From positions 62,001-126,000 of the IMG/VR virus record IMGVR_UViG_3300037010_001702: a DNA stretch of 64,000 bases. One strand, 5' to 3'. Numbering within the stretch: the first letter of the stretch is position 1; each line of letters opens with the position of its first letter. Below the pieces are notes generated by a model. The model ran no database searches. It was given only the letters and a program-made list of their open reading frames with translations, and was not told the DNA's origin. The translations under genes and the position numbers were made by a program. This document shows positions 8,135-59,624 of the stretch, one piece after another. Source of the stretch: a virus.

Positions 8135-8428
8135 ATGCCACACTACAAAGATAGCAACAACCAGGTGTACTGGCTTGATTCCATAGAGATGGAACATCTT
8201 CTTCCAGTAGATGCCGTTAACATTTCCGACAATGAAGTTGAAGTCATAAAGGCTCTTAAATTTCCCCCAAAAACTGGAAATGCTGCACTGCTTGAACAGA
8301 TAGGAATCATAGAAGCTTCAGTTACACCACGCCGATTAAGAGAAGCTGCTTTAACCGAAGCCGGAAAAGCTTGGCTTGCAGACGTGGATTCTCAAATTGC
8401 TGTGCTGAGAAACCAGCTGGTGAAATAA
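8135..8428 (+). CDS. Small fibre-associated protein (possible tail-fibre assembly type)
   Basis: A 97-aa protein that begins MPHYKDSNNQVYWLDS, like the short proteins that follow tail-fibre genes in many phages. It continues VTPRRLREAALTEAGKAWL, a motif often found at the C-terminus of Caudo_TAP-like or DUF4376-like assembly proteins. It is 9 nt after the fibre gene with an AAGGACTAAAA site. It probably aids fibre folding or trimerisation, but the family assignment is from recalled pattern only. Confidence 0.6.
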   Translation: MPHYKDSNNQVYWLDSIEMEHLLPVDAVNISDNEVEVIKALKFPPKTGNAALLEQIGIIEASVTPRRLREAALTEAGKAWLADVDSQIAVLRNQLVK

Positions 8429-8477
8429 GGTTACCTAAAACTAATCGAAATTCTGTAACAAAGTAACCAACAAACTG

Positions 8478-8506
8478 TTTACATTCCTAAGAAATCAGGT
8501 TATAAT
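8478..8506 (+). promoter_or_regulatory. Sigma70-type early promoter
   Basis: TTTACA (8478-8483), exactly 17 bp, TATAAT (8501-8506). It lies 22 nt upstream of the ligase N-half start at 8529. Confidence 0.75.
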
Positions 8507-8528
8507 AACCTATCTAAAGGAAAATAGT

Positions 8529-9116
8529 ATGTTAAAGATTACCGAAGTTGAAGAATTCCGTGAACTTGTAAAGTGCAAGGAAGAAATCCGTGAAGCCCAC
8601 ATCGGTCATGGCTGCACTTCCTTTTGCTACATGGTCTCTGGTCCAGATACCTTTGACTCGGCTGCTGCGCGTGAGTGTCGTGGTATCGTTTTTGACGGTC
8701 CAGATGTTGTTGGTCGTCCTCTTCATAAGTTCTTCAACGTGAATGAGCGTGAAGAAACCCTTCTAAAGAACTTGGATTGGTCAAAGGTTGTGCGAGTTAT
8801 GGATAAGCGAGATGGATGCTGTGACGAAGATACAGTGCTATTCACTATAGATGGCCCAAAGACCATTAAGGATGTGTGTGACTCCAATTACACAGGGTTG
8901 GTCATGGGCTGGAATCATGTCTTGAATGAAGTTCAGTGGACTCCTATTCTGGGTCATGAAGTTAAACCAAATAACAATGATTGGTATGAACTTGAAATGG
9001 AGGATGGAAGCAAGATCAAATTAACTGGAAACCACCTAGTATGGTGTATCAATCAAGAGAGATATGTTCGAGTTGATCAGCTCACAACACAGGATGAAGT
9101 TCAAAAACTGTACTGA
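8529..9116 (+). CDS. rnlA: RNA ligase (T4 Rnl1 type), N-extein fused to split intein N-half
   Basis: A 195-aa protein in two parts. Residues 1-96 match the start of T4 RNA ligase 1, including AARECRGIVFDG and HKFFNVNE, and end in MDKRDG, where Lys93 is the AMP-accepting lysine of motif I (KxDG). Residues 97-195 are the N-terminal half of an intein. Cys97 opens block A (CCDEDTVLFTIDG, aligning with the starts of gp41-1 and NrdJ-1 split inteins). A WTPI segment follows, then block B KLTGNHLVWC with Thr166 and His169, then YVRVDQLTTQDEV. The frame stops just where split-intein N-halves end. Alone it lacks motifs III-V and cannot be a complete ligase. It has its own early promoter and an AAAGGAAAATAGT ribosome-binding site. 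Confidence 0.92.
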   Translation: MLKITEVEEFRELVKCKEEIREAHIGHGCTSFCYMVSGPDTFDSAAARECRGIVFDGPDVVGRPLHKFFNVNEREETLLKNLDWSKVVRVMDKRDGCCDEDTVLFTIDGPKTIKDVCDSNYTGLVMGWNHVLNEVQWTPILGHEVKPNNNDWYELEMEDGSKIKLTGNHLVWCINQERYVRVDQLTTQDEVQKLY

Positions 9117-10056
9117 GTAATGTGAGAATGAATTGTTCAAGTTCATTATCTGTTTTGGAGTTTATATCATTCTCCCAGATCGAGAGATATCGATATCCAG
9201 ATTCGATCGCAATATTCCGTTTCTTCAGATCTTTGTTCCAAATATCCTTGGCGGCGATTTTAGTTGTTTTGCCTGGAAAGTTTAACAGACTGTTTTCCGT
9301 GTAAAATTTAGGGTTAGCATGCCAGAAGTCTCCTTGAACTTCAAGAACAACATTATTGTTTATCAAAAAATCATATTGAAATCTTTTGATAAAAAATGAA
9401 TATTGAAATGGAACACCAAGGAAAGTTAAACAGTTAGCGACACGGGTTTCAAGTTTATTGATTTTAAAGTATCGTGGTAACGTTCCATTAGTGATCATTG
9501 TATTTTGTTTCTTTTGATGTATTATATACAGTTGTTCATCGGTGAGATTTTCGTATGGATTAACTCTTTTCTTACCATAATGTTCAAGATGAGTTTTAGT
9601 TATTTTGTCTTTGACCTCTGTAAGTTGAAACACATTAACAATGCCGTAACGTTCCTTAAGAGTTCTTTGTCTTGTAATATATCCAACTGAACCTTTAGAC
9701 AGAGCATTTGTAGTGCCATATTTTGTCAAACATGTTTCTCGATATTTCTTTTTAATTGAGTTAGTATTGTTCGCTGTCTCAAGATTTCGTTTGGGAATTC
9801 TATGCATATCTAAGACAAAGTTCAATACCTTAAAATTGACATTAAACATTTTGTAAAAATCAACTGATGAAAGTTCATCTTCAACATACAGCTTATATAT
9901 CAATTCTTTATCAGATAGATTGATCTTTGAATGATTATACGTCAACACATGTAGTTTAAACTCATTTTTGGGATAATCCTTACCACAAGTTTTATAGTGT
10001 GGCAATTTTGATGCAGTTCCACAGATTGGGCATGTTAGTGGTTTATATGGTTTCAT
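9082..10056 (-). CDS. Vsr-like homing endonuclease inside the fractured ligase
   Basis: A 324-aa protein starting at the ATG whose first residues are MKPYKPLTCPICGTASK. An upstream ATG at 10119 is less likely because a late promoter lies between. The N-terminus has a zinc-ribbon (CPICG). The middle has repeated KYGTTNAL / RYGIVNVFQ units, probably DNA-binding. The C-terminus has the nuclease core QYDFLINNNVVLEVQGDFWH, then DLKKRNIAIESGYRYLSIWE. That matches the EDxHD/Vsr-like homing endonuclease family found between halves of split-intein genes in marine metagenomes and in I-Bth0305I. It overlaps the end of the ligase N-half by 35 nt tail to tail. Its likely job is to spread the intein arrangement. 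Confidence 0.85.
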   Translation of the reverse strand: MKPYKPLTCPICGTASKLPHYKTCGKDYPKNEFKLHVLTYNHSKINLSDKELIYKLYVEDELSSVDFYKMFNVNFKVLNFVLDMHRIPKRNLETANNTNSIKKKYRETCLTKYGTTNALSKGSVGYITRQRTLKERYGIVNVFQLTEVKDKITKTHLEHYGKKRVNPYENLTDEQLYIIHQKKQNTMITNGTLPRYFKINKLETRVANCLTFLGVPFQYSFFIKRFQYDFLINNNVVLEVQGDFWHANPKFYTENSLLNFPGKTTKIAAKDIWNKDLKKRNIAIESGYRYLSIWENDINSKTDNELEQFILTLLSTVFELHPVL

Positions 10057-10091
10057 ACTATGTATTTCCACGATAGATTTATGATATAATC

Positions 10092-10099
10092 TATTTATA
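10092..10099 (-). promoter_or_regulatory. T4-type late promoter for the homing endonuclease
   Basis: TATAAATA on the minus strand, 35 nt upstream of the endonuclease ATG (10056). It overlaps the outer arm of a 7-bp hairpin (ATAGATT/AATCTAT, 10073-10079 with 10088-10094), so only read-through transcripts would form the hairpin. Confidence 0.7.
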
Positions 10100-10146
10100 G
10101 ACAAACGCAATATAATCACGTTTTTCCATCAGCATGGTACTACTAT

Positions 10147-11142
10147 ATGAAAATTCTAAATATCTCCAAAGTTAAAAGTCAATCTGACCGATATGACATT
10201 CAGACTGGTACTAAAAACTTTTTTGCGAACGGTATTCTCGTCCATAACTCATTGATTCATACTGTGAATACAGATCTGGGTGTTAAGCTAAAATCTAAGA
10301 AGACATTTAGCTCAGCCGTTGCACTAGCTGCTGAAAAGTGGATGTATGAGCAGCCTGGACATCATGTCCTGTCTTTTGTGAACTTTGTCACCGCTCAAAA
10401 TTTAACGGCGATCTTTGAATGGACTGCTCCTTCTGCTCGCATCGTTCTCTTCTACCCAGAAGCTGAACTACAATTGCTTCACATTCGCGATAACGTAACT
10501 GGTGTGTACATGGAATCTGAAGACCTTCATAAGTGGGCTGAAGAGTTCAACGTGAAGGTCGTTGAAGAAGTTGAGTTTGCTAATGTCTTCCCTTCTGAAG
10601 ATGCCAACTGGTATCCAGAAGACTACGAAGACGGTAAGTTCAAGCTTGCTGCATTTAACATGGAGCGTGCTAAGTGGCTACATGAAAATGTTGAAGGTGT
10701 AGAAGGTTGGGTATTTCAGTTTGAAGATGGAAACATGGTCAAGCTGAAGACCGACTGGTATATCAAGCGCCACCACGCTATGACATTCATTCGCGAACGC
10801 GATATTGCTCAGCTGGTTCTAGACGAGGGTCTGGATGACATGAAGGCAATGCTGGTTTCTGAAAACGTGAACATTGACCGTATCCTAGAGATCGAACAAA
10901 ATGTGGTTACTGAGCTGAATGTCCTGCGAAAGCTGGTTGATTCAACTGTAAAGGCATGTGAAGGCATGGATCGAAAGACCTTTGCTATCGCACATAACAG
11001 CCACAAGTACTTCTCTCTGCTGATGCGAGCATTTAGTGGGCAAGAACCTAACTACAAGGATTATTTTGAAAAGAATATCCTTAAGGAAAAGTACGGCCAG
11101 GCTCAAGTAGTCATGATGCCATCTATTGCTGAAGGAGATTGA
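10147..11142 (+). CDS. rnlA: Split intein C-half fused to RNA ligase (T4 Rnl1 type) C-extein
   Basis: A 331-aa protein. Residues 1-34 are a split-intein C-half: MKILNISKVK, then block F (DIQTGTKNFFANG) and the terminal ILVHN, with His33-Asn34 and Ser35 as the +1 extein residue. Residues 35-331 are the rest of a T4 Rnl1-type ligase: SLIHTV completes motif I, AIFEWTAPSARIVLFYP holds motif III, EGWVFQF motif IV, and VKLKTDWYIK motif V. Spliced to the N-half it gives 96 + 297 = 393 residues, near the 374 of T4 Rnl1. No convincing ribosome-binding site precedes the ATG, and no strong promoter is visible, so its expression may be weak or depend on read-through. Confidence 0.92.
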   Translation: MKILNISKVKSQSDRYDIQTGTKNFFANGILVHNSLIHTVNTDLGVKLKSKKTFSSAVALAAEKWMYEQPGHHVLSFVNFVTAQNLTAIFEWTAPSARIVLFYPEAELQLLHIRDNVTGVYMESEDLHKWAEEFNVKVVEEVEFANVFPSEDANWYPEDYEDGKFKLAAFNMERAKWLHENVEGVEGWVFQFEDGNMVKLKTDWYIKRHHAMTFIRERDIAQLVLDEGLDDMKAMLVSENVNIDRILEIEQNVVTELNVLRKLVDSTVKACEGMDRKTFAIAHNSHKYFSLLMRAFSGQEPNYKDYFEKNILKEKYGQAQVVMMPSIAEGD

Positions 11143-11216
11143 GATGCGAAAGTTAATGATGGATCGGATCGTGGAGCTGAAGCCGCTATAGCAATAGGAT
11201 AAGTAAAGGACTTGAT

Positions 11217-11597
11217 ATGAAGTTAACAGAAATAAAATACGAAGAAACATGCATTTTGTCTGAATCTGAAATAATGGAGATGGCAAGAATAAAGGAAGCA
11301 GATTCCGGTATTCCTGTTGTTATCTATGTATCAACAAAGCAGTCTGTTAAAGAACACCACGGCCCACGAATTAAAGTTTCAAATATAAAAACTTTTTCTG
11401 ATTCTGATAATTTTGCAATAGATATTTCTAAAAATCCAAGTCCTATTGCTGGAAAAGTTAAACTGAAAAATTCTGAAGTAGATGATATTTGTGATTGGAT
11501 AAAATTAAATTATGAGCCACTTATGAAGTATTGGAATGATGAATACACTAGCGATGCTATTTTCTTTACAGAAATTAAATCACTAAAGGCTTTATAA
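11217..11597 (+). CDS. Hypothetical protein (126 aa)
   Basis: An unrecognised protein lying between the two ligase genes. The segment MARIKEADSGIPVVIYVSTK, then EHHGPRIKVSN, looks like a small alpha/beta domain. The C-terminus has EVDDICDWIKLNYEPLMKYW. AT content is higher than in the flanking ligase genes. A TAAAGGACTTGAT site precedes the ATG, and its stop overlaps the next start by 1 nt (TAATG). A role in RNA repair is suggested only by position. Confidence 0.55.
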   Translation: MKLTEIKYEETCILSESEIMEMARIKEADSGIPVVIYVSTKQSVKEHHGPRIKVSNIKTFSDSDNFAIDISKNPSPIAGKVKLKNSEVDDICDWIKLNYEPLMKYWNDEYTSDAIFFTEIKSLKAL

Positions 11598-11857: not shown

Positions 11858-11908
11858 GTATATCTCTAGAAGATGGTATTCAAGCATCTATTTCAAAAGG
11901 ATAAACAT

Positions 11909-12967
11909 ATGAGAAAACTTGCAACAATTAGAAAAATTTCAAAACTATTACCAATTCCCGGCGCAGATGCAATTGAAGTTGCTGTTGTGGATGGGTGGGA
12001 AATAGTCGTGAAAAAAGGAGATTTTGAAGAAGATACTTTAATAGTGATGTGTGAAATCGATTGCTGGGTGCCACATGAGCTTGCTCCATTCCTGTCAAAG
12101 GGAAAGGAACCCCGGGTCTATGAAGGCATTAAGGGTGAGAAGCTTCGCACGGTAAAGTTGCGTGGTGCTCTGTCGCAGGGTCTTCTGCTTCCACTTTCTG
12201 TGCTTGGTAAGCCTGAAGAAGTCTTTTCTATTGGTGATGAATGCATTGGTACTGACGTGTCAGAACAACTTGGTATCATTAAGTGGGAACCAGTTCTTCC
12301 TGCTAATATGGCTGGACAAGTGAAGGGTCTGTTCCCTAGCTTCATTCGCAAGACTGATCAGGAGCGCTGCCAGAACATTGTCGATGAGATTTTCATTGAC
12401 AACAAGGATGCTCGCTACGAAGTTACTATCAAGCTTGATGGTTCTTCTATTACTACTTACAAGTTCCAGCAAGACACTGGTGTCTGCTCTCGTAACCTTG
12501 AACTGGAGATTAACGAAGAGAACAAGGACAACTCGTTTGTTAAGATGTTCCAGGGTTCTATGCTTCAGGCTGTTCTTGATAAGATGGGTAAGAACATTGC
12601 AGTTCAAGGTGAGCTGATGGGTCCTTGTATCCAAGGCAACCGTGAAAACTTCAAGGATACAAAGTTCTTTATCTTCGAAGCGCAGTTCATTGATGATCAG
12701 CGTAAGCTGACACCTGATGAAAGAAAGGCTCTGTTTGCTGAACTTATGGAATGCGGCGCAGATGCACATATTGTGAATCACGTGCCTATCCTACACTACA
12801 ATGTTACTCTTGCTGAGCTTGGCATCTTCAATGTTGAAGACCTTCTAAAGTTTGCTGATGGCCCGTCGATTAACAACCCTATTAGGGAAGGATTGGTGTT
12901 CAAGCGAATGGACGGTGGATTCTCGTTCAAGGCAATTTCGAATAAATTTTTGGAAAAGGAAAAATGA
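11909..12967 (+). CDS. RNA ligase of the Deinococcus Rnl (DraRnl/Rnl5) type
   Basis: A 352-aa enzyme starting at the ATG after AAAGGATAAACAT; a frame beginning at 11873 would add 12 residues without a site. Residues 1-120 form the OB-like N-terminal domain typical of DraRnl-type ligases (RKISKLLPIPGADAIEVAVV, GALSQGLLLPLS). The nucleotidyltransferase domain follows: motif I VTIKLDGSS (Lys175), RNLELEI, motif III FFIFEAQFI, motif IV REGLVFKR and motif V FSFKAISNKF. DraRnl seals 3'-OH/5'-phosphate nicks in duplex RNA or RNA/DNA hybrids. Together with the fractured Rnl1 this gives the phage two unrelated RNA-sealing activities. Confidence 0.9.
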   Translation: MRKLATIRKISKLLPIPGADAIEVAVVDGWEIVVKKGDFEEDTLIVMCEIDCWVPHELAPFLSKGKEPRVYEGIKGEKLRTVKLRGALSQGLLLPLSVLGKPEEVFSIGDECIGTDVSEQLGIIKWEPVLPANMAGQVKGLFPSFIRKTDQERCQNIVDEIFIDNKDARYEVTIKLDGSSITTYKFQQDTGVCSRNLELEINEENKDNSFVKMFQGSMLQAVLDKMGKNIAVQGELMGPCIQGNRENFKDTKFFIFEAQFIDDQRKLTPDERKALFAELMECGADAHIVNHVPILHYNVTLAELGIFNVEDLLKFADGPSINNPIREGLVFKRMDGGFSFKAISNKFLEKEK

Positions 12968-46870: not shown

Positions 46871-49800
46871 TTAACTTAATGTGAGCCTGAACGGTACAGA
46901 AAGTGTCGTTTTGAATGTGAACGAATTTGCATCTGTAAGTTGCGGCATAGCTGGGAATACAATTGAGCTAGGAATTGGTGCATCGTAAACACCAGTTCCA
47001 GTGTAAACAACCTCACCAGAAGGTAGGGTGTTAGCGATGAGCTGCTCCAGGGAGATCGTTGGCGAACCGCTGTAGCTTCTGTTCTGAACTACAACCATGT
47101 ACTCGTCTGCTGCTTGAGTAACAACCATTCCTGTTGTCTGAACATTCATGTCAAAGAATAGAACAAACTTAGCTGCTACGAAGTCCAGGTCAGTGTCGTA
47201 TGGATATGAGTCATACGCGTATGCATCATAACCGGTTGTTGGATCTGGATCGATTGGACATTCACGTTCCATGATAGTGAGACCTTCAATGATTGCCGTG
47301 CTAGCTTGAACAGCCGTATCACCATCAACGTTGGGAACATCTCCAGTGCTTTGAGTAATAGAGATAGAAGGTCCAGGAGTTGGGTTGATGATTACCCAAT
47401 CGCTATCATTTCCAGTATACTCATAGTTTCCACTTCCCGCAGGAGACTCAACAATGCCAGTAACTATTCCAGTTGTAGAGTCATCGTAGGCAGTTGCACC
47501 ATAAGGAAGGACGTCATAGCCTCCCGTGCTAATAGAGGCTGCACCACCTTCGATAATATGTGCATTAACGATATCAACAAGTGAAATATCTTCAATAATG
47601 TCCAGATACTGAATAGGTTCATCCGCTATGTTAATGCTTGAGATGTCTTGGAAGTTTAGTCTAACACGAGCATAAGTTCTGAAATTTTCAGTAATCTTTA
47701 CTCGAATCTTCTGACCGTACGATTGGTCTGGAAGGAACATCAGTGAAAAGTTAGTACCAAATTTCAGGTACTGGGATACAAAAGCAGAATCAAGAACGAT
47801 TGTTGCTGATGCATTTCTGTTTGATGTTTCATAGCGAGGCTGGAGGATGTGGAATACCTTCACATCTGGATTGCTACCCAAGTAACCTTCAATGTAGGTA
47901 GCAAGATCAGAGAACTCAGCTGCAGACACCGGGACGTTGTTAGCTATGCGATCGTAGTACTTAAGTGTAATTGGGATCCAGTCATTTGAGTCTGGAGCAA
48001 GCTCGGGGAATAGTAGGTTAGCACCTTCAATTCTGAACTTAAAGGTGTCATTAGCTGCTTTGTCAATTATGAACTTATCTCTATCAGTTACGTTCTTGAA
48101 GATAACAGAACCATGACTGTGGTAGAGTGGAAATATTTCCTGGTTGAAGATGAGTGGAACAGTACATTCACCAACCTCAGCATCATAGCCATGAACCCAG
48201 TACTCGCTCTCATCATAGCCAACATCAGTTGTGTAGCTGTACATTGGAGCAAGGTAGATGTGAATGACATCACCAACTTGGTATGGAATTCCATTCGCCA
48301 TTGATGGAATCTTAAATGCTGCACGTCCATCGGTCCAAGGTGTGTCAATCTTTAATCCAGCCAGCTGACCATAAACGTTGCTGACAACGGTTGCTGTAGT
48401 ACTTGACACGAATGTAATCGTGTAAAAAGATGGCTCTGCTGAAGAGTGAGGAACAGGATCGATCTCTGGACCATTTATTCCTGCTGGAATAACAGCTGGC
48501 GGAGTGTAGGCAGCTGTAAGTGGAAGCGGAACAAAGTTGGTGAGGTCATATGGTGTACCGCCTCCACCAACGAACGTTCCATTACCGTATGCGATGCTGT
48601 TCAATCGACGACCACGGTAACGTGTCCAAGAGTAACCATCAATTGAAGATGAGACCCATCCATCAACATTATCAACACCAACAAATTTCCCAGCAGCGAA
48701 AATGATGTCGGAGAACGTACCATCATTGAAGACTGAAAGGTTAGCCCATGTTGACCCGTCAAGTGAACGAAGAATTGTCCCCCGATCACCGACAGCGATG
48801 AACATTCCAAGTGTTGCAGAATAGGTAACAGCTGAAAGATGATTGACTGTATTAGATGGAACTTGGACCCAGTCAATACGATTTACTGATGTTAGAATTG
48901 TTCCATGTTCACCCACAGCAACAAGAATGCTATTGCCAAAGGTGATGTCATTTAGATTTGTTGTTACTCCAGAGCTTTGAGTAGCCCAACCAGAACCATT
49001 TACGGTTGAGATTATTGTACCACTATTACCTACCACAACTGTCACGCTTAGCAGTGTGGATGGGTTTGACGGATCAGTAAGAGCGTTAGCTACTTGAACA
49101 AAGCCATTCAGATCTTCGTTAACGTGGGTGACTGCCTTTTCCCAGATGATTGCTGGACGAAGGGGAAGGTAAGGATATCCCGTGCTAGGATCAACAGCGA
49201 CGTGAATGTAATCAGCTGGATTCGCTGGATAACCAGTTGTGGAGTCTATCGCGTAAACAGCTGGATCTTGCACACCAACTCCGGCTGTTCCATTTGGACC
49301 AATGGTAACTAGGTAGTTTAGCTGAGTTGGGAATATTGTCGTGAGATCAGATGTCCACGTTACACCATCGGTAGACGTACCGACTATAGAGTCAGCCCCA
49401 GTGATGTAGAAAATTCCATTGTTGAATTCTACGGACTTTACTATCTGACCATTGGCGACTGAAATTTTCCAGTCGCCGTTGCTAGCATCTACTGATGTAA
49501 GGATGGTTGAATTGTAAGCGTGCGCAAAGTACTCAAGCTTTGGAATCTTAAGGCCAATCTTTCCATTCCAATACCACTCACCAATGACAGCATTTGGCTG
49601 CCAACCAGATATGCTACCGTAAACAAGATAGTGCTCAACCTTATCACCAACAGTAAAGTTAAATGAATCACCAGCGAAGTAACCATCGAGTGATGGGATA
49701 AGGGTGAATTGGATGTAATCATCTTTATAGCCACAGCCATCTGCTAGGTTGATAGTTAAGCCATTTGTTCCGTAAAGCTTCCCAGATGCATTGATAGCCT

Positions 49801-51022
49801 GAAGCGTGTATGTACCATCACCATTAAAGTTAATAGCCCAGTGAGTGGAAACGTTTGTGTAGCCAAGGGAGTCAGTATGTACCTCAATCGCTGGATATGT
49901 TGTGTTAGCTGGTCTAGCTGAACCGGGAGCAAAGGTAGGGACACCCACCATAGCAATAGGATTTGTCTTGATGAGTGACCACGATTCTTCTGGAGCTGTA
50001 GGAGCTACAACAATGCGAGAATGCGGTGTTAGCGTGATCGTATTGCCAACAAGCATCTCAGTAATACCGTCAAGAGCTGGTCCCATCTTAAATGAGATGA
50101 TTGGATTTACAAAGCTGCCATTCAAAACTGTGACGCCAATATCACCCGAGATTGATCCCTTTACATTTACGTAGTTGAGGTCATCAGGATTTGAAGCGAG
50201 AGTAACTGGGTCAACTATAATAGTTGAATTACCAAAATTGTCAACGCGCGTAAGAGTCCACTCTTCATAGTTGCCACCAGTAATTCCAGTTACTGTAGCA
50301 AATGGTTTAGTTACATCAGCATAGAGGAGAGTACCTTCATTCTCAGGGAATGCTGTAGCGTCCTTTACATTTCTATCCTTCCAGCGCTGAAGTGGTGCGC
50401 CGCTGCCCTGAATAACGTCAAATGAATAAACGCCACGAGACAAGAAGTAGTCAACCGTATCTTGGCAATGAAGTGTAGCATCATATGGGTTAGAATCTGC
50501 TGGTAGGTTAGGAGTGTAAAGTGGGTCCCGCTCGATGCGGTACTTGTACTGTCGTACGTCAGTGATGCCCGGCCCATCCCATCTAATGTTGCTGAATACC
50601 CTGTTTGTTGAGATGTTACCAATCCCAGGAATTTGCGTGTCATCATCAACTCTTCCAGGACGGCGAATGTTATCAATGCCAGCGTAAAACTCCGATCTGG
50701 ATGAGTGGCTAGCGAACTTATTAACCGATGTAAGTGGTACCTGCCACGTCGTTCTGCTACCATCGGACATGATGTCATGGTACCAAGATTGTGAACGACG
50801 AGCTCTAATCTTAGGTGTGCCTATCTTTGGAGATATATCTGCCCCAAGGATGGCAAGAAGCTGGTCATCCTCATCAATCTTTACGTTAACGTCATCATGA
50901 AAGATGTACTGTTCAACAATGGCGGAAAGCTTTACGTGATAAGGCTTTACGTCAAGTACGTAATTGATAAGACTATCAATGTGCCCACTGCTGACGGTTA
51001 AGTAATTGTTAGTAGAGCTCAT
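46871..51022 (-). CDS. Giant tail/baseplate protein with embedded beta-propeller (1383 aa)
   Basis: The start at 51022 follows GGAGCAAGCAG; a start at 51052 has no site. The N-terminus SGHIDSLINYVLDVKPYHVK looks like the conserved start of a baseplate/tail family in environmental T4-like phages. Residues about 515-820 contain repeated blades of the type VAVGEHGTILTSVNRIDW and FIAVGDRGTILRSLDGSTWA, a YCF48/BNR-like beta-propeller. The C-terminal part has VDPSTGYPxxP and PTTGYDAYAYDSYPYD tyrosine/proline repeats. It overlaps the end of the 2871-aa gene by 14 nt. It is probably peripheral to the baseplate and possibly receptor-binding. Confidence 0.75.
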   Translation of the reverse strand: MSSTNNYLTVSSGHIDSLINYVLDVKPYHVKLSAIVEQYIFHDDVNVKIDEDDQLLAILGADISPKIGTPKIRARRSQSWYHDIMSDGSRTTWQVPLTSVNKFASHSSRSEFYAGIDNIRRPGRVDDDTQIPGIGNISTNRVFSNIRWDGPGITDVRQYKYRIERDPLYTPNLPADSNPYDATLHCQDTVDYFLSRGVYSFDVIQGSGAPLQRWKDRNVKDATAFPENEGTLLYADVTKPFATVTGITGGNYEEWTLTRVDNFGNSTIIVDPVTLASNPDDLNYVNVKGSISGDIGVTVLNGSFVNPIISFKMGPALDGITEMLVGNTITLTPHSRIVVAPTAPEESWSLIKTNPIAMVGVPTFAPGSARPANTTYPAIEVHTDSLGYTNVSTHWAINFNGDGTYTLQAINASGKLYGTNGLTINLADGCGYKDDYIQFTLIPSLDGYFAGDSFNFTVGDKVEHYLVYGSISGWQPNAVIGEWYWNGKIGLKIPKLEYFAHAYNSTILTSVDASNGDWKISVANGQIVKSVEFNNGIFYITGADSIVGTSTDGVTWTSDLTTIFPTQLNYLVTIGPNGTAGVGVQDPAVYAIDSTTGYPANPADYIHVAVDPSTGYPYLPLRPAIIWEKAVTHVNEDLNGFVQVANALTDPSNPSTLLSVTVVVGNSGTIISTVNGSGWATQSSGVTTNLNDITFGNSILVAVGEHGTILTSVNRIDWVQVPSNTVNHLSAVTYSATLGMFIAVGDRGTILRSLDGSTWANLSVFNDGTFSDIIFAAGKFVGVDNVDGWVSSSIDGYSWTRYRGRRLNSIAYGNGTFVGGGGTPYDLTNFVPLPLTAAYTPPAVIPAGINGPEIDPVPHSSAEPSFYTITFVSSTTATVVSNVYGQLAGLKIDTPWTDGRAAFKIPSMANGIPYQVGDVIHIYLAPMYSYTTDVGYDESEYWVHGYDAEVGECTVPLIFNQEIFPLYHSHGSVIFKNVTDRDKFIIDKAANDTFKFRIEGANLLFPELAPDSNDWIPITLKYYDRIANNVPVSAAEFSDLATYIEGYLGSNPDVKVFHILQPRYETSNRNASATIVLDSAFVSQYLKFGTNFSLMFLPDQSYGQKIRVKITENFRTYARVRLNFQDISSINIADEPIQYLDIIEDISLVDIVNAHIIEGGAASISTGGYDVLPYGATAYDDSTTGIVTGIVESPAGSGNYEYTGNDSDWVIINPTPGPSISITQSTGDVPNVDGDTAVQASTAIIEGLTIMERECPIDPDPTTGYDAYAYDSYPYDTDLDFVAAKFVLFFDMNVQTTGMVVTQAADEYMVVVQNRSYSGSPTISLEQLIANTLPSGEVVYTGTGVYDAPIPSSIVFPAMPQLTDANSFTFKTTLSVPFRLTLS

Positions 51023-54000
51023 CTGCTTGCTCCACTTGGACAGTGCCGTCAACTACTGAGGTTGAGTTAACCGTTATAAACGAGGTCTTGAACATGTCGC
51101 TAAATTCATAGTTGTTAGAAAGGGCATCATCTAACGTGTCGAAAAATATTTCATTGATCTGAGCCGGACGAGCTGTATTCCAGATCAATGACATCGTAGC
51201 TCTTGCAGTTGCAGCATCCTTAAACCAGTTTTCACTGTCATCAAAGTTAAGAGCTGAGATGTAGTCAGGAATCTTCTTACCAGCAAGATTCAAAACAAGG
51301 TTTGTGTTCAGAATTGTGTTTGTGACTGAAGCTCTGACCAAAGATGTTTCTGCAAAAATCTGTCCAGGATTAAATCCATAACGTGTACGAGTATTATTTC
51401 GAGCATCATAATCAATTCTTGCTTTTGAAGGAAGTTGATTGCCAGCAGTATCAGTGCCAGCAACAGCATTAGTAAGAATTTCCCAAAGAGCTGCAGGAAT
51501 CTTGGATGATTGACCTTTACGGATAAGAGCCCATTCAGTGTGAATGTTCTTAAGGTTCAATTCTTCAGGATCATCGCGAAGTGTAAAATCTCTAAGCATG
51601 CGAAGCTTATAGGAATCATTCTTAGTGATCAAGGTATTCAATCCGGAGATCGCAAAAGAGTCATATGCTGCAGATGGAAGAACCGCACCTGGCTGAAGTC
51701 TAGAGAACACCGCATAGCGTGGTGCTCCAGATTTAAGAAGGGCTGCTGCTTGTGAAAGTGACATTGACTTGTTTGCTTGCGGAATGGTTTTGTCTTGAAC
51801 CCAGAAATAGTACTTCGTCCCAGTAATATTCCCCTGCTCATCTCTTACCTCAAGCTGGGTGTACTGGTAGTCTGACTTATACTGAACCTGAATAGTTACA
51901 TCATCGGCAACTGATGGATCAAAAGCTAATTCTTTAGCTGTCGGTTGATACGCTCTATAAAGAAGAGTAACTATGGTTCCTTCAGGTAACGGAGTATTTA
52001 CAAGTTCCACAACTTTTCCTGTAATCACGTATCCATCAGGATTTACCTGAATGCCATTTGAATAGATTGATAGGCGGTTAGGGTCAATGGTGTCGCTTAA
52101 CATGAACGAAACATTCGTTGTACCATTTGAAATAGCATCAAGCTTCTCATTTGACAAGTCAACCCAGTTATTCCAGGTTGATGAGTAGCGGCTTATGGTG
52201 ATACCAGACTTAAGGGTAAGTGTGGATGTCGAATCCTTCATCGCGGCAATTACCACTGGTGATGGAGCTACGACAACTGGGTCACCCATGACCGGCAGCC
52301 ACGCATTGTACGGTGAAAGAAGATCAGATGTAAGCTGAGCTTGAGTAGGAATTACCCACGTTCTCCAACCATAGTCAGAAGGAACGCTCAAGTAATCTCC
52401 AGAGTTGCTGAATAGCGTACCTGGATCACTTGGAAAATCAACAACTGTTGTGAAGTCAATAGCCTCACGGATAACAACGTCCTTAGCTGGAAGTGCCCCA
52501 AAGATTCCAATGATATCTGTTATGCTTGAATTAGTTGGGAAGGAAATTGTAAGAGCAAGACCGAATAAATCAAACTTGTAGGTGGCCTGGGTGTCAACAC
52601 CCAGAGGTGTGGTTACCTCTACGTCCTGGAAGAATCCAGTCGAATCAGTCATTCTAATGAAGCTGTCGTGTGATGTAAGTGCCACGGCACCAATGCGGGT
52701 ACCAAATACTCCACCGGTGATGATGCTTAGTGAGAGGTCAGCATTAAGAACTGGAGCAAGCGGGTCAGTAGAAGATCCAATGACATAAGACGTTACTGTA
52801 CCAATTGAAAGCTCACCAACAGGTTTAGAGTTGACGATATCCCAACCACTAAATCCACGTCCTGCAATCAAGTCAGCATCCGCGACGCGGCCTGTATCAG
52901 CGATAAGGATGTTACCGCTTCTCCAGATGTTTGTGTTCGTGTTGGTGATAAATGATGGGTGGCCATTAACAGCCCCAGTAGGAACATATGACCATGCAAT
53001 TGGCACTGCTGTTATCTTGCGATCGCGTGAGTAAAACTTAGAAAGAGCTACCTTACCTGAAAGCTTTACTGAGTCGTCAATTGATGAATCACCTTCTTGC
53101 GCTACTGCTTGTGCATTGTAGGCAGATGGGTGAACAGGGCTTTCTGTCCACTCGTAAAGATCGATGGATGCCCATTCAGCAAGTGAACCCCAGCGAGCAT
53201 GGCGCACATCACGACTTGGGAAAATTGTCGCGTCATAGTATGGAATGTAAGCAAGGTTACTCGTATCCCAGAACACTTGGCCTACTTCTCTAGCTCCCCA
53301 CGGCTTAAGGTGCTTGTACTGAACGTTGTCAGTTGTTTTCGTGGTGTAGTTGTAGTTAGCTGGATCTTCTCCAGATATCATGTTAACAACCTCAAGCGGT
53401 GCGTAGGCGTGAATACCAATAGCTGGGTGCCACAAACCAATTTCATCTACTAGGGTGTTCTCAATGTAATCGAACAGCTTAATAGGAGAGTGCTTGGTTG
53501 GATTGTTCCACGTGTAACCACTAACGGTGAATTGCCCAGGACCACTTACCCAGATCATGGAAGCATTAACAACTCTAAAGGTAGCTGCGGCTGTTGTCGT
53601 AATTGATGGGCTCATAGCATCACCGTTATGGTAGATGTTAGTAAGCTTGTAGTAGCCTGCGGCAGGTGCAGTAATGACTTCAGAAATAGGAGTTGCCTCA
53701 AACTTCATTCCAGTACCAAGGTCATCAATTGAGAACCAGTACGTGTCATCAGAGTTTTCAATCTGTGTGTAAAGTGGAAGTGGATCATGAATATCATCCA
53801 CCGAGTAGAACTGGAATCTAGAGAACTTTTGAGTAGCATCCTTTGGGTTGATCTTGATTTCTGGGAATGTGCGCTCACGAGCATCACCGAATGTTGCAAG
53901 CTTGTAAGCCCAGAACTCATCGGTAGAAGCATCAATGAATTTCTTGTAATTAACGAACGCGTTGATAGCCATGTTCGTTCCCTTAGCTTGAATCAAACCT

Positions 54001-57000
54001 CTCCAGAAGTTAAACTGAGTAATGTCATTCGCGTTTACACCGGCAAAGTAATCCTTCTTAACGAAACCAAGAAGGGATAGTGCGTGCTTAGCTGTAAGTG
54101 GGTCATAGAAGGTTTGATCAGCATCGTAGTAGTTTCCAATCGTGTCGATTGAAGACGAGATGTTTCTCTTAACGTCACTACCACTAAGGTAGAAGCCGCT
54201 AAAGGTTGGTTTTCTAGATGTTTCAGCTTGTCTGATATAGGACAAGAATGCGGTACTGAGCCTAAGTCCCAGGAACGTATCAAAGATTACCGTTGAATTT
54301 GTTTCATCTGAGAAGTGTTGGTTCATCAGGATGACGTGCTCATACTCATCGGTAAAGACGTGAGCTGAGAATATCGGTGTTTGACTGTAGGTAATGGAGC
54401 GCTCATCAGTACGAACAACAAAGATGTTGTCAATTGGAATTGCAGTACCGGTCACGTCATACGCTGCTTGAGTAGAGTACTCATCGATAAAGTTCGCGTC
54501 AGAGTACTTAGCCATCAATCCTACTGGAGTGTCAAGTTCAAGACGGGACATGAATGGGTTAAGAATGTAACCCTCACCGGCGGCCATGCCCTCATAAACG
54601 TGATCAATGAACTTTTCAATCTCAAGCTGCCAGTTAAGGTTACGACCAGTCTTAGCGTCTGTTACTGGAGAGTCAGAGCTTATCTTCCATCCAAGGTCAG
54701 CAAGACGATCGGTATAACCGTAGATGAAATCAACGACGTTCTGAAGGCCAGTGATTGAAAGTGGAACCGTGGATGATACAATGCTAGAGTGGTTAAGGCA
54801 GTGCTTCCACGCAAGGTCAGTATGTTCCTTTTGAAGAGCATAGAAAGTTTCAAACTCGCTAGCAGTGTCCAAGATGTAGCGCTCAAGAACTGGGTGCTGT
54901 TGATTGTATGCTTCAACTCTGAAGATCCAATCAGAAGCGTCAGCTGTTGGAATGTAGACACCATCAATGTTTAGCTTCTTCGTACCAAGTTGAACAAGCT
55001 GGATTCGAAGACCAGAAATCCAAAGGCTAGAAGTGTTGGAGGATTTCTTCAAAACAACATCATAGGCGGTAGAAGGAAGAGCCCCAAGTGAGGTGTCAAT
55101 CGAAAGAGTTTCTGGACGGATAAGAACACCGAGCTGGTGAGCTAGCTTGATTGACCATCCACGGTAAGCAACTGCAGCTGGTGACAGTGATGTGTCAACT
55201 GAATTGAATCTTAGAAGATTTGTGAACCACTGTCCAAGACCCTTGAATATCTTCATGTTGCTGGAAGTGAATGCGTAGGTAAATGGAACTTGAACCATTG
55301 GAACAGTTGCATTCTGAGATGCTATGATGGCACCATTAGCAATGCAGTCCTCACACCCAAGTGGAAGAACTTCGACTGCTGGAGGAATGTAAGCAGGGTC
55401 GGGAATGTTATCAAAGAACTTAAGGGTGATCGTGTCACCCATGTCAAATGGGATTCCAAGATCATCAATCTTAACATCAGTTAGAACTATTCCACCAGAA
55501 CTAATTGAGAATGTTTGGCCTTCAGCAACGTAGTCGATGAACGTTCCATTAGCGTAAGCGCTGAACCAAGTAACATTGTCAGCAGTATGTGTAACAACAA
55601 ATGAGATAGTTCCTGCACCAGTCCATGTAATAGGAGTTGAACCTACGATGACGTGCTTTGCTATTTCAGCTGCAGTATAAGTGTTAATGATGTTTAGCTT
55701 TTCACCATGCAGCAAGAAGAATGCTGGAGGTAGTGGTGACATCAAGTTACGCTCAACGCGAACGTTATTGTTTGTCTTAAAGTAGGTTTCACCCCATGTC
55801 TTGTCTAAGAATTGAAGTGGTGAAGATCTAAAGTAGCTACGAGCAAGGCCATATCCATACTCAAGCGACTTCATCCAAATGGTTTCAATAGGGCCGTGTT
55901 GTCCAAACGTGTAGCTTAATGAGATACCAGTTGGCATGACAGTTGTAAGAGCTTCAGCTGATTCAAATGCAGCAGCAGAAACATACGGCGGGAGCAGGGC
56001 GTCAGTGTTAATGTTGACACTTAGCTTAAGTGCAGGGTTTGCTGCCTTGATTGCTTGCCACATTGACTTCAGCCAGGTCCTAATTTGACCAAAGCTAACA
56101 GGAGTAACTGACGGCTGAATTGTTCCGGTTGTTAGGACAGTCCAATTGGTAGTAGCAAAGCTTCCACTAAGAACATTGATGGTGAGACCAGCTGAAAGAG
56201 GATTAGCAGCACGTGACCATCCCCCAGATGATACTAGCCAAATACCATTTTGACGCGCGTCGAACTGTCCAGTTAGTAGAAGAGAGTCTCCTTCTGAAAG
56301 AGTAATACCGTCCACAGTTGGCAAACCAATGAATGGAGGAATGATGTTGACATCTGCAGCGTAAGCTACAGCTAGCGTGGCTACGTTTCCGGTTATGGTT
56401 GAAAGGTACTGAGCGTCCCAGTTGGCTGGCTTAGTTGTAAAGCCCATAAGCTTCCATGGTTCAAGATTAGGACGGCATGTTCCAGGAAGACCATTGCTTG
56501 TAAAGTAGTCAGTAAGTACGTCAAACCAGCGAGCCGCTGTTGTGAATGGAAGAACTGCTTGTGAATAGTTCCATGTGAAAGCATCTGATGCTACATAGTC
56601 TGGAGCATAGGTGTCATAACCATATTTTGCAGCGTAACGAGCAAGCTCAACCTCAGAATAGCTTGAAAGAGCTACGTCTGACAGAGTGACGTGAACGTCT
56701 TGCTTAGCATGAACGCTGTCGTAGAGCTTATTTTCTACGGCTAGAACCAAGCTATTTCTAATAGCTGATGAATTAAATGGCTTCCACAGAGAAGGAATAA
56801 GTCCAAGTGATGCTGGCTGCCAGCTAAGGTTTACCGGGTTCCACTCGTAAAGTTCATTAGCTGACTTCTTATACCAGAAAGCGCCCGCATAGCCAGTTGG
56901 GACAGTATCCGTATCACTAACAACATCAAAGATCGAGATTGCGAATGTAGATGGCTTAACCCAAAGTTGACCAGCATATGGTGTAAGTGGTACTGCTTCT

Positions 57001-59624
57001 GAAAAGATGCCGGCTGAAGATGTCCCATCTGAACGAGGAACAACGGTTTGAACCAGAAGCCTATCTAGCTCTACGTTGCTGCTTGTAACGGGTGACACAT
57101 GCCCATCATGGTGAACCATGACGTCAATTCCAAGTTCAAAGTCAAATGAAATTGATGGTGTTACCTTTGGAAGCAGACCGAGAATAGGAAGGGTTGCTGG
57201 CCAATAAGTTACCTTTGCCGTGGTATCACCAAAAACCGTTTTGAGGGTTACATCCTCAGCTCTAATGCTTTCAAAGTGAGCGAGCAGGCGTTGAATATCA
57301 GGTGCGTCTGGATTTACCATGGAAGTAAGGATACTTCCACTGCCTGCGATGTAGGATGGAAGAGCTTCAGAGATAAATCGGTCAATGCTGGCAAGAGCAA
57401 CCATGTACTGCTGTTGGACAAATTCAAGGATAGAGATGGTTGACATCTCAGGTTGAATAAGGCTTGAAGCTAGAAGAGGAAAGTTGCTGCTGAATTCTCT
57501 GATTGTACCACCAAGGGTTTCATCAAAGTTCAAGTTACGAACGTTATTGATACCGAAAGATGATCCGGTGAATCCATCTTGGTGCTTGACAACGTTGCGA
57601 GCGTGATTAAGAAAGTCGCCAAACGTAATCTCAAGAACTGTCTGTCTATCCAAGTTCTCGAACATACGTGCAGGTGTCATCCAGGCACCGTCAATAACAC
57701 CGTCAAGAGCATCAGCAGTATAGCCACCGGGGTAGTTCACAAGTGAACCATCGCTAAGCTTCTTTACGTAACGTGGCGAAAGAGGAGCGATGATGTTGAA
57801 AGAGAACTGCTCTGCATTTTCAAAAGGATTTATTCCAGCTGTAATAAGGCCAGAGAAGTCTTCAACAGTGAAAGGAGTACCAACAGTTGCTGTGTAAACA
57901 ACCCCACTTCTAATTCCCTTGATGGAGAATTGAGTTGGAGATATAGCGATTGCTTCCCATTTTTGGTTGTCAGCATATTGAGCTACGCTTGTTATCGTCA
58001 TTGTTCCCTTGTTAGGGTTTCCAGCAAACACTGGAGTTGTTGCTATGGCAGTAGTAACGCTACCCTGCCATACTGACTTAAGAATTCCAGAGCTCTTGTA
58101 GTAAAGAAGACGACCATCAATGTCGGCTAGACCACAACCAAAGATAAAATCAGCATCAGCCGTTGTCTTCACGCGGCGCTTTAGGACTGCATCAGTTGTG
58201 TAATCTGGATCTTCAACATAGAAGAATATACCACTCGTTGCACCTTGGTGAGTACCATCATAGCGGTACAGGTTGAATTGTGGAATCTGATTAAGCTTGT
58301 ACTTGAACTGACGAGCATTGATGACTGTGCTGGAGTGCCCTGGAGTTCCGCTGCTGTCAACGTAGGAGTTTAGCTCAACGCTGTTGTTGTATTCAATGAT
58401 TGGGCGAGTAGCCGAAACCATCGTGTAGGCAGCGTAGTTTGGAATGGACGTGATGTCATCGCGGTGAACCCAGTAGTTTCCTGTCTGCCAGTCGTTTAGC
58501 GTACTTAAGCCGATTGGTTGTGCAGTTTGCGCAAAGTCAAATGAGCTAGTAGCAAACGTACCAGCTGATTCATATGTCTTGCCACCATTCGCTGTACCAG
58601 TATTGACATAGACGACTGAACCAACCCCGAATTTAGCTGCTGTGTCAGTATCAGTTGTTCTCTTCCACTCACTATCAAGGGTAACAATGTAGATACCATT
58701 CTTTGACTTGTCAGTTTGATCCTTTACGAGAATTCTGTCACCAACAGCAATCACGCTTCCGTCAATAGTCATTAGTGGGGATAATGTTTGGACAGAACTA
58801 ATCGCTCCCTTTCCAACGGTTGAGATAGAGCTGAAGTTAATCAGAATGTTGCTGGTGAAGTAGGTGATCTTCACTGTGAATGAATCCCCGCTACCAAATG
58901 GTAACGTACCAACAGTAATTACAAATGACATTAGCTGGCCACCAAGGTTGTCATAGACGATTACCTGAGTAGTGTCACCTGAAGAATTGGAGGTAAGAGC
59001 TGTAACGTTGGCTGTAACGTTGCCAAAATCGCTCGTGATAGTAAAGTGCGAGTTGGACGTAAACGTTACAGTGAATGTTTCAGTTGGGCGACCATTTGCC
59101 CAAAGTTGAATGCTGGAAGTTGTGGCAAGACGAACAGGATTCTTTATGATGTCGGTTGGACTAGGTCTAGCGATGACGTAGAACTCTGGATCATTTGTCA
59201 TGTTCCACTCTGGGCCAGTAGTGAGTGGCTTCACCCAAAGGTAGTTAACGTAATTGATGAACTTATCAATGTTGATTGGAAGAGAGTAGTTAAAGTACTC
59301 TTCAGCCATCCACTCACGCATATGAGCTATGTCAACATCAAGGGATACCATCTTATTGATGAAGTCCTCAAATGTATTGATGCTTACCTCTGTACCTGAC
59401 TTAGAGTAAAGTGCAGGAACAAGTGCATTAACCTGTCTGTCGAAAGATGGAGGAACAATATCCGTGTCGCCCACCACGGAAGTTCCTATTCGTCCGTTTA
59501 CAAGAACGCTATTTTCCTCAGAAACGAAACGATTGAACGTATTCGAAATAAGTCCGTCAAGAAGCTCATTTCGAATTGCTGGAGGAATTAGTTTTTTAAG
59601 GTCTAGAGATTGACTGGTTGCCAT
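51009..59624 (-). CDS. Giant tail/baseplate protein (2871 aa)
   Basis: A single 8.6-kb frame. The N-terminus LKKLIPPAIRNELLDGLISN, then FEDFINKMVSLDVDIAHMRE and NINKFINYVNYLWVKP-like text, is helical and probably docks on the wedge. The body holds at least two fibre-type modules (GDRILVKDQTDKSKNGIYIV near residue 300; GDSLLLTGQFDARQNGIWLV further on) and very long beta stretches. By gene order after gp6 it occupies the place of T4 gp7/gp8, but it is almost three times the length of gp7. Homology to gp7 is not visible by eye. GATAAATA at 59663 is its likely late promoter. Confidence 0.75.
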   Translation of the reverse strand: MATSQSLDLKKLIPPAIRNELLDGLISNTFNRFVSEENSVLVNGRIGTSVVGDTDIVPPSFDRQVNALVPALYSKSGTEVSINTFEDFINKMVSLDVDIAHMREWMAEEYFNYSLPINIDKFINYVNYLWVKPLTTGPEWNMTNDPEFYVIARPSPTDIIKNPVRLATTSSIQLWANGRPTETFTVTFTSNSHFTITSDFGNVTANVTALTSNSSGDTTQVIVYDNLGGQLMSFVITVGTLPFGSGDSFTVKITYFTSNILINFSSISTVGKGAISSVQTLSPLMTIDGSVIAVGDRILVKDQTDKSKNGIYIVTLDSEWKRTTDTDTAAKFGVGSVVYVNTGTANGGKTYESAGTFATSSFDFAQTAQPIGLSTLNDWQTGNYWVHRDDITSIPNYAAYTMVSATRPIIEYNNSVELNSYVDSSGTPGHSSTVINARQFKYKLNQIPQFNLYRYDGTHQGATSGIFFYVEDPDYTTDAVLKRRVKTTADADFIFGCGLADIDGRLLYYKSSGILKSVWQGSVTTAIATTPVFAGNPNKGTMTITSVAQYADNQKWEAIAISPTQFSIKGIRSGVVYTATVGTPFTVEDFSGLITAGINPFENAEQFSFNIIAPLSPRYVKKLSDGSLVNYPGGYTADALDGVIDGAWMTPARMFENLDRQTVLEITFGDFLNHARNVVKHQDGFTGSSFGINNVRNLNFDETLGGTIREFSSNFPLLASSLIQPEMSTISILEFVQQQYMVALASIDRFISEALPSYIAGSGSILTSMVNPDAPDIQRLLAHFESIRAEDVTLKTVFGDTTAKVTYWPATLPILGLLPKVTPSISFDFELGIDVMVHHDGHVSPVTSSNVELDRLLVQTVVPRSDGTSSAGIFSEAVPLTPYAGQLWVKPSTFAISIFDVVSDTDTVPTGYAGAFWYKKSANELYEWNPVNLSWQPASLGLIPSLWKPFNSSAIRNSLVLAVENKLYDSVHAKQDVHVTLSDVALSSYSEVELARYAAKYGYDTYAPDYVASDAFTWNYSQAVLPFTTAARWFDVLTDYFTSNGLPGTCRPNLEPWKLMGFTTKPANWDAQYLSTITGNVATLAVAYAADVNIIPPFIGLPTVDGITLSEGDSLLLTGQFDARQNGIWLVSSGGWSRAANPLSAGLTINVLSGSFATTNWTVLTTGTIQPSVTPVSFGQIRTWLKSMWQAIKAANPALKLSVNINTDALLPPYVSAAAFESAEALTTVMPTGISLSYTFGQHGPIETIWMKSLEYGYGLARSYFRSSPLQFLDKTWGETYFKTNNNVRVERNLMSPLPPAFFLLHGEKLNIINTYTAAEIAKHVIVGSTPITWTGAGTISFVVTHTADNVTWFSAYANGTFIDYVAEGQTFSISSGGIVLTDVKIDDLGIPFDMGDTITLKFFDNIPDPAYIPPAVEVLPLGCEDCIANGAIIASQNATVPMVQVPFTYAFTSSNMKIFKGLGQWFTNLLRFNSVDTSLSPAAVAYRGWSIKLAHQLGVLIRPETLSIDTSLGALPSTAYDVVLKKSSNTSSLWISGLRIQLVQLGTKKLNIDGVYIPTADASDWIFRVEAYNQQHPVLERYILDTASEFETFYALQKEHTDLAWKHCLNHSSIVSSTVPLSITGLQNVVDFIYGYTDRLADLGWKISSDSPVTDAKTGRNLNWQLEIEKFIDHVYEGMAAGEGYILNPFMSRLELDTPVGLMAKYSDANFIDEYSTQAAYDVTGTAIPIDNIFVVRTDERSITYSQTPIFSAHVFTDEYEHVILMNQHFSDETNSTVIFDTFLGLRLSTAFLSYIRQAETSRKPTFSGFYLSGSDVKRNISSSIDTIGNYYDADQTFYDPLTAKHALSLLGFVKKDYFAGVNANDITQFNFWRGLIQAKGTNMAINAFVNYKKFIDASTDEFWAYKLATFGDARERTFPEIKINPKDATQKFSRFQFYSVDDIHDPLPLYTQIENSDDTYWFSIDDLGTGMKFEATPISEVITAPAAGYYKLTNIYHNGDAMSPSITTTAAATFRVVNASMIWVSGPGQFTVSGYTWNNPTKHSPIKLFDYIENTLVDEIGLWHPAIGIHAYAPLEVVNMISGEDPANYNYTTKTTDNVQYKHLKPWGAREVGQVFWDTSNLAYIPYYDATIFPSRDVRHARWGSLAEWASIDLYEWTESPVHPSAYNAQAVAQEGDSSIDDSVKLSGKVALSKFYSRDRKITAVPIAWSYVPTGAVNGHPSFITNTNTNIWRSGNILIADTGRVADADLIAGRGFSGWDIVNSKPVGELSIGTVTSYVIGSSTDPLAPVLNADLSLSIITGGVFGTRIGAVALTSHDSFIRMTDSTGFFQDVEVTTPLGVDTQATYKFDLFGLALTISFPTNSSITDIIGIFGALPAKDVVIREAIDFTTVVDFPSDPGTLFSNSGDYLSVPSDYGWRTWVIPTQAQLTSDLLSPYNAWLPVMGDPVVVAPSPVVIAAMKDSTSTLTLKSGITISRYSSTWNNWVDLSNEKLDAISNGTTNVSFMLSDTIDPNRLSIYSNGIQVNPDGYVITGKVVELVNTPLPEGTIVTLLYRAYQPTAKELAFDPSVADDVTIQVQYKSDYQYTQLEVRDEQGNITGTKYYFWVQDKTIPQANKSMSLSQAAALLKSGAPRYAVFSRLQPGAVLPSAAYDSFAISGLNTLITKNDSYKLRMLRDFTLRDDPEELNLKNIHTEWALIRKGQSSKIPAALWEILTNAVAGTDTAGNQLPSKARIDYDARNNTRTRYGFNPGQIFAETSLVRASVTNTILNTNLVLNLAGKKIPDYISALNFDDSENWFKDAATARATMSLIWNTARPAQINEIFFDTLDDALSNNYEFSDMFKTSFITVNSTSVVDGTVQVEQADELY

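Follow-up and report, generated by a model that had tools for sequence, protein, structure and literature searches.

A probable fractured RNA ligase gene with a split intein and a Vsr-like endonuclease in a large phage

Dassa and co-workers reportedly described fractured genes in marine metagenomes in 2009, namely gp41, NrdA, NrdJ-1, IMPDH-1 and similar loci. At these loci, an enzyme gene is split by a split intein and a free-standing Vsr-related endonuclease lies between the two parts. The same arrangement is found in a stretch of 64,000 nucleotides, in the following called the window, which covers positions 62,001 to 126,000 of the IMG/VR virus record IMGVR_UViG_3300037010_001702 (239,441 bp). 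However, compared with these fractured genes the host is here an RNA ligase of the Rnl1 type that is cut inside motif I, and in the subgroup to which the window belongs the endonuclease is antisense and overlaps tail-to-tail with the N-half. T4 RNA ligase 1 (gp63, Rnl1) is a member of the same enzyme family, with all nucleotidyltransferase motifs and the C-terminal domain, but unlike the ligase of the window it is a single uninterrupted polypeptide. We interpret the locus as a fractured gene: very probably, a split intein, accompanied by a free-standing Vsr/EDxHD-type homing endonuclease, has invaded an Rnl1-type RNA ligase in its motif I, whereby the ligase would be restored by trans-splicing and the endonuclease would drive the spread of the insert.

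The split ligase, its intein and the endonuclease

The N-half gene (8529-9116, plus strand) encodes a protein of 195 amino acids and the C-half gene (10147-11142, plus strand) one of 331 amino acids. Between these two half-genes, the open reading frame (ORF) of the endonuclease is open from 9082 to 10119 on the minus strand. Both features of a fractured gene with a split intein are present: two host ORFs with one intein half each and, separating them, an endonuclease gene of its own. The original prediction, which was made from the letters of the DNA alone, had described the same two composite proteins and the antisense EDxHD/Vsr-like endonuclease between them, and coordinates, profile matches and conserved residues bear it out. 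Two features go beyond it, the position of the split inside motif I (KRDG|S) and the tail-to-tail overlap of 35 bp (9082-9116) between the endonuclease and N-half ORFs.

The N-extein comprises ligase residues 1-96 (8529-8816, plus strand), the last of which are motif I, K93-R-D-G96. It matches TIGR02308, phrog_562 and PF09511 (RNA_lig_T4_1; protein residues 49-97, 5.8e-10, above the cut-off). The C-extein (10249-11139, plus strand; stop codon 11140-11142) consists of the +1 Ser and the remaining ligase, 297 residues in total, and the C-half protein matches PF09511 (8.6e-15) and T4_Rnl1_C (PF20819, 7.6e-10), both above the cut-off, as well as TIGR02308. When scored singly against this TIGR02308 equivalog, the two halves reach 34 and 127 bits with a cut-off of 242, a low score that is expected of halves. 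In the alignment to T4 Rnl1 (2C5U), the ligase part of the C-half ORF starts at residue 104 of the PDB chain, which we take to be S103 in the usual T4 Rnl1 numbering, and contains motifs III, IV and V and the C-terminal domain. Together with motif I (KxDG) of the N-half, all motifs that define the T4 Rnl1 family are present. According to this alignment, the intein is placed inside the nucleotidyltransferase motif I, between KxDG and Ser (G102|S103 in T4), and a split at this position leaves a complete active site in neither half. Inteins usually target conserved sites (PMC2814812).

The intein N-half of 99 amino acids (8817-9113, plus strand; stop codon 9114-9116) starts with Cys1 and carries the block B residues TGNH at protein residues 166-169. 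It matches Intein_splicing and, at residues 97-171, TIGR01445 (intein_Nterm, 5.5e-4, below the cut-off), and its splicing residues are conserved in 14 loci. The intein C-half of 34 amino acids (10147-10248, plus strand) ends with ILVHN, is conserved in the related loci L003, L009 and L085, and matches TIGR01443 (intein_Cterm, protein residues 16-35, 3.2e-5) above the cut-off. The class 1 intein residues C1, TGNH, HN and +1 Ser are thus all present, and they are conserved in related loci. The charges of the two halves are opposite, -9 for the N-half and +3 for the C-half. Moreover, the joined halves match the solved split intein NrdJ-1 with E=1.4e-15. A model of the HINT fold was built on L085, a native contiguous homologue, as a proxy for the window halves. 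In L085, the intein of an Rnl1-type ligase occupies the same site and is unsplit; its N and C parts are 51% and 64% identical, respectively, to those of the window intein. The model has a HINT fold with a mean predicted local distance difference test score (pLDDT) of 93.3, and its best match in the PDB is the NrdJ-1 split intein (E 1.6e-11), with DnaB, DnaE and gp41-1 inteins among the further matches. The HINT fold on which the original prediction depended is in this way supported for a close contiguous homologue, which stands in for the window sequence.

The ratio of nonsynonymous to synonymous substitution rates (dN/dS) is about 0.10 for the intein and for the endonuclease, and therefore both are under purifying selection. 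This bears on the assumption that the ligase is a non-covalent enzyme of two subunits, as in Aeh1 NrdA, which is split by plain endonuclease insertion, and that the intein pieces are non-splicing relics. Non-covalent split enzymes do occur in T4-like phages (PMC2988022). However, the split falls here inside motif I, all splicing residues are intact and conserved, the dN/dS of the intein halves is that of constrained sequence, and the halves are intact even where the nuclease has decayed or is gone, and we regard such an assembly as improbable.

The endonuclease can be read as a protein of 324 amino acids from ATG 10056 (9082-10056, minus strand) or of 345 amino acids from GTG 10119, and the ATG start is common to L003 and L009. 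It matches homing endonuclease families of phrog, and D229, E239, G242, H246 and W294 are invariant in 26 endonuclease homologues. The C-terminal domain of its model resembles the catalytic domain of I-Bth0305I (3R3P; template-modelling score 0.74 by target length), whereas no reliable match to a known structure was obtained for the N-terminal region. I-Bth0305I itself is the endonuclease of a group I intron. The Vsr-like catalytic domain with its conserved acidic and histidine residues fits the EDxHD/Vsr-like class. For Vsr proper (TIGR00632), a score of 16.7 bits was obtained with a cut-off of 97.85, and therefore "Vsr-like" is the right designation and "Vsr" a wrong one. The uncultured phage LR756501.1 of 735 kb also encodes a related endonuclease (L091:5025-5948; 28.5% over 90%), which is free-standing between other genes with no adjoining intein halves.

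Related loci and the movement of the insert

The locus is present as an identical copy in a second contig (L002). In a syntenic relative (L005), whose DNA near the locus aligns in blocks of about 71-85% identity, the ligase is uninterrupted, with the exact join at KRDG|S and an N-part that is 92% identical to that of the window. The whole inserted block of 1432 bp (8817-10248; intein N-half, endonuclease and intein C-half) is absent from L005 with an exact junction, and it differs in composition from the ligase, with a G+C content of 34% vs 44%. The uninterrupted alternative in relatives, together with the neighbouring gene at 11873, which is a second, intact RNA ligase, could also mean that the locus has decayed and that neither ligase nor intein works. 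Against this, all ORFs are intact in the window and in three divergent relatives, purifying selection is strong, and motifs I, III, IV and V are kept, and decay is therefore very improbable.

The same three-part layout with an antisense endonuclease was found in L003/L004, L009 and L135/L136, and the N-half protein of L003/L004 is 72% identical to that of the window. Since the layout recurs in these independent contigs, it is due neither to chance nor to an accident of assembly. When the window is compared with L003, codons of conserved amino acids are saturated in the ligase (40% identity, 39% expected), whereas those of the insert are 62% identical vs 43% expected, with a maximum of 50% in 2000 shuffles. 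When codons were permuted, 0 of 10,000 permutations reached the observed difference in synonymous divergence between insert and ligase. Synonymous divergence is far lower in the insert than in the ligase, and therefore the insert's common ancestor is younger than that of the host gene, which points to horizontal movement. An insert that appears younger than its host gene is as expected for homing. A base-composition effect was considered as the cause of the low synonymous divergence in the insert, and the codon-shuffle control argues against it.

Intein-profile scans of IMG/VR yielded about 30 contigs with about 20 distinct loci in which an Rnl1-type ligase is interrupted at the same codon boundary as in the window. 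These loci form a graded series. The endonuclease is antisense in the window, L003, L009, L135 and probably L272, and in sense orientation in L096, L098-L102, L121 and L254. It is broken or a remnant in L248, L250, L256-L261 and L265/L266, and it is lost with the intein still split in L097 and L140. Finally, it is absent in L085, where the intein is unsplit. The remnants in L256-L261, L265, L266, L248 and L250 are short or frame-broken and lie between intact ligase halves; the form seen in L256-L261 is common to contigs from several metagenomes. Even in loci with a decayed nuclease the intein halves have kept their reading frame, an argument that the ligase depends on splicing. Trees of intein and endonuclease came from short searches, have many weak forks and were used only loosely.

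Proposed mechanism and host range of the intein family

In the proposed mechanism, the two precursor proteins would be made separately and then meet, and the intein halves would associate to one HINT domain. Class 1 splicing in trans would then give a ligase of 393 residues (96 + 297) in which the KRDGS motif is whole again. In co-infecting phages with an uninterrupted ligase gene, the endonuclease would make its cut close to the conserved codons of motif I, and the whole block would be copied into the cut gene during repair. Trans-splicing and endonuclease-driven spread had both been put forward in the original prediction, and they find support in the class 1 residues, the HINT fold of L085, the empty allele of L005, the recurrence at the same boundary, the purifying selection and the movement of the insert. 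From the observed anatomy and spread of the locus we infer the two activities, splicing and cleavage. Some points count against this interpretation. The intein models score under their curated cut-offs for the N-half, the modelled HINT fold is that of the L085 homologue as a proxy at the identities given above, and the promoter scan revealed no clear promoter for the C-half gene. Furthermore, a search of the open-access literature, with incomplete coverage, gave no report of an Rnl1-type RNA ligase as host of a split intein, an absence that is no proof of novelty.

Further phage nucleotidyltransferases carry members of this intein family at motif I, namely PF09414-type RNA ligases (L103, L108 and, more weakly, L104), NAD-dependent DNA ligases (L119, and L154 by inspection) and ATP-dependent DNA ligases (L112, L148). 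In L159, L180 and L218, whose ligases resemble the DRB0094 type, the intein occupies a second site, DEER|CQN. The hosts of L154, L159, L180 and L218 were called by inspection of the translated exteins. Some of the search patterns contained KxDGC, which biases the share of motif I among the hosts upward; the KxHG hosts came from patterns without this bias. It is an evenly balanced question whether these loci represent one lineage of phage split inteins with Vsr-type endonucleases that has become a specialist for motif I of covalent nucleotidyltransferases and has passed from one protein family to another, at the KxDG/KxHG boundary in Rnl1-type and other RNA ligases and in NAD- and ATP-dependent DNA ligases, and in addition at DEER|CQN in DRB0094-type RNA ligases. 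No relative came to light when contigs of bacterial and archaeal genomes were scanned with patterns. GenBank phages contained no close copy of the intein; the N-half had its best match, at 34%, in a Streptococcus phage with reading frames that resemble a terminase with inteins, followed by UvsW of Salmonella phage S16. In Streptococcus phage vB_SagM-GXN1 (PQ819873.1; L239:2241-5211), an unannotated region can be read as a terminase-like protein that contains at least two intein-like segments, one of which is followed by nuclease-like sequence.

In L103 (6300-11550), a distance of 5.25 kb separates the halves of the fractured PF09414-type RNA ligase. Between them lie a polynucleotide-kinase/phosphatase-like ORF and further unrelated ORFs, and no endonuclease was detected there. 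If this gene is functional, assembly at the protein level is the simplest way of union. L103 also speaks against joining at the RNA level, in which the middle part of the window locus would be an endonuclease-bearing intron and translation would give one contiguous ligase with an intein. EDxHD/Vsr-like endonucleases are indeed also found in phage introns (PMC12350094). However, region 8200-11500 has no Rfam intron match, the C-half gene has its own ATG, which is also present in L003, and the endonuclease is antisense, all of which makes an intron hardly credible.

Some features around the locus are to be added. The element TATAAATA (10092-10099, minus strand), 43 nt upstream of the endonuclease ATG, corresponds to the T4 late promoter core and lies on the same strand as the endonuclease. 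It is kept in L003 and also occurs upstream in L135, but not in L009, and may serve as the promoter of the endonuclease. Upstream of the N-half lies a sigma-70-like promoter match, TTTACA-17-TATAAT (8478-8506, plus strand), which is weak evidence, as the scan of the region gave no excess of such matches over shuffles. Just downstream of the fractured ligase, the second RNA ligase (11873-12967, plus strand) is of the DRB0094/phrog_968 type. Its KTDQER|CQN site is empty; the related ligases L159, L180 and L218 have split inteins with an endonuclease there. Farther away, three very large adjoining ORFs of 1393, 2871 and 1237 amino acids are located on the minus strand (46871-51052, 51009-59624 and 59698-63411).

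Comparison with known systems

The original prediction stated that no case with an RNA ligase as host protein was known. This stands insofar as no earlier report on the Rnl1 type was found in the open-access literature, but it needs qualifying with regard to RtcB. Inteins are known in this RNA ligase, which is thus an intein host like the ligase of the window; however, RtcB is unrelated to Rnl1 and its inteins are contiguous. The arrangement itself is already known, and an Rnl1-type RNA ligase as host of a fractured gene appears to be new. RNA ligases, and apparently other nucleotide-transferring ligases too, extend the range of proteins that harbour naturally split inteins. For the phage this would mean an RNA-repair enzyme that gains activity only once two gene products have met and spliced. 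As one and the same gene offers a graded series from an intact nuclease to remnants to none, plus an unsplit form, the origin and fate of split inteins become testable. For protein-splicing work, the loci moreover provide a new source of native split inteins whose Ser+1 junction lies within an enzyme active site.

The closest solved relative of the window intein, NrdJ-1, is itself reportedly the intein of a fractured gene. In a cultured phage, the same three-part order is present in gene 43 of Aeromonas phage Aes508: the gene for DNA polymerase is split, its parts carry an N- and a C-intein fragment, and an ORF with a VSR domain lies between them. The VSR domains of Aes508 and the window are 27% identical over 91 residues. 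Aes508 differs from the window in that the host is a DNA polymerase, the endonuclease is in sense orientation, and a group I intron is also annotated.
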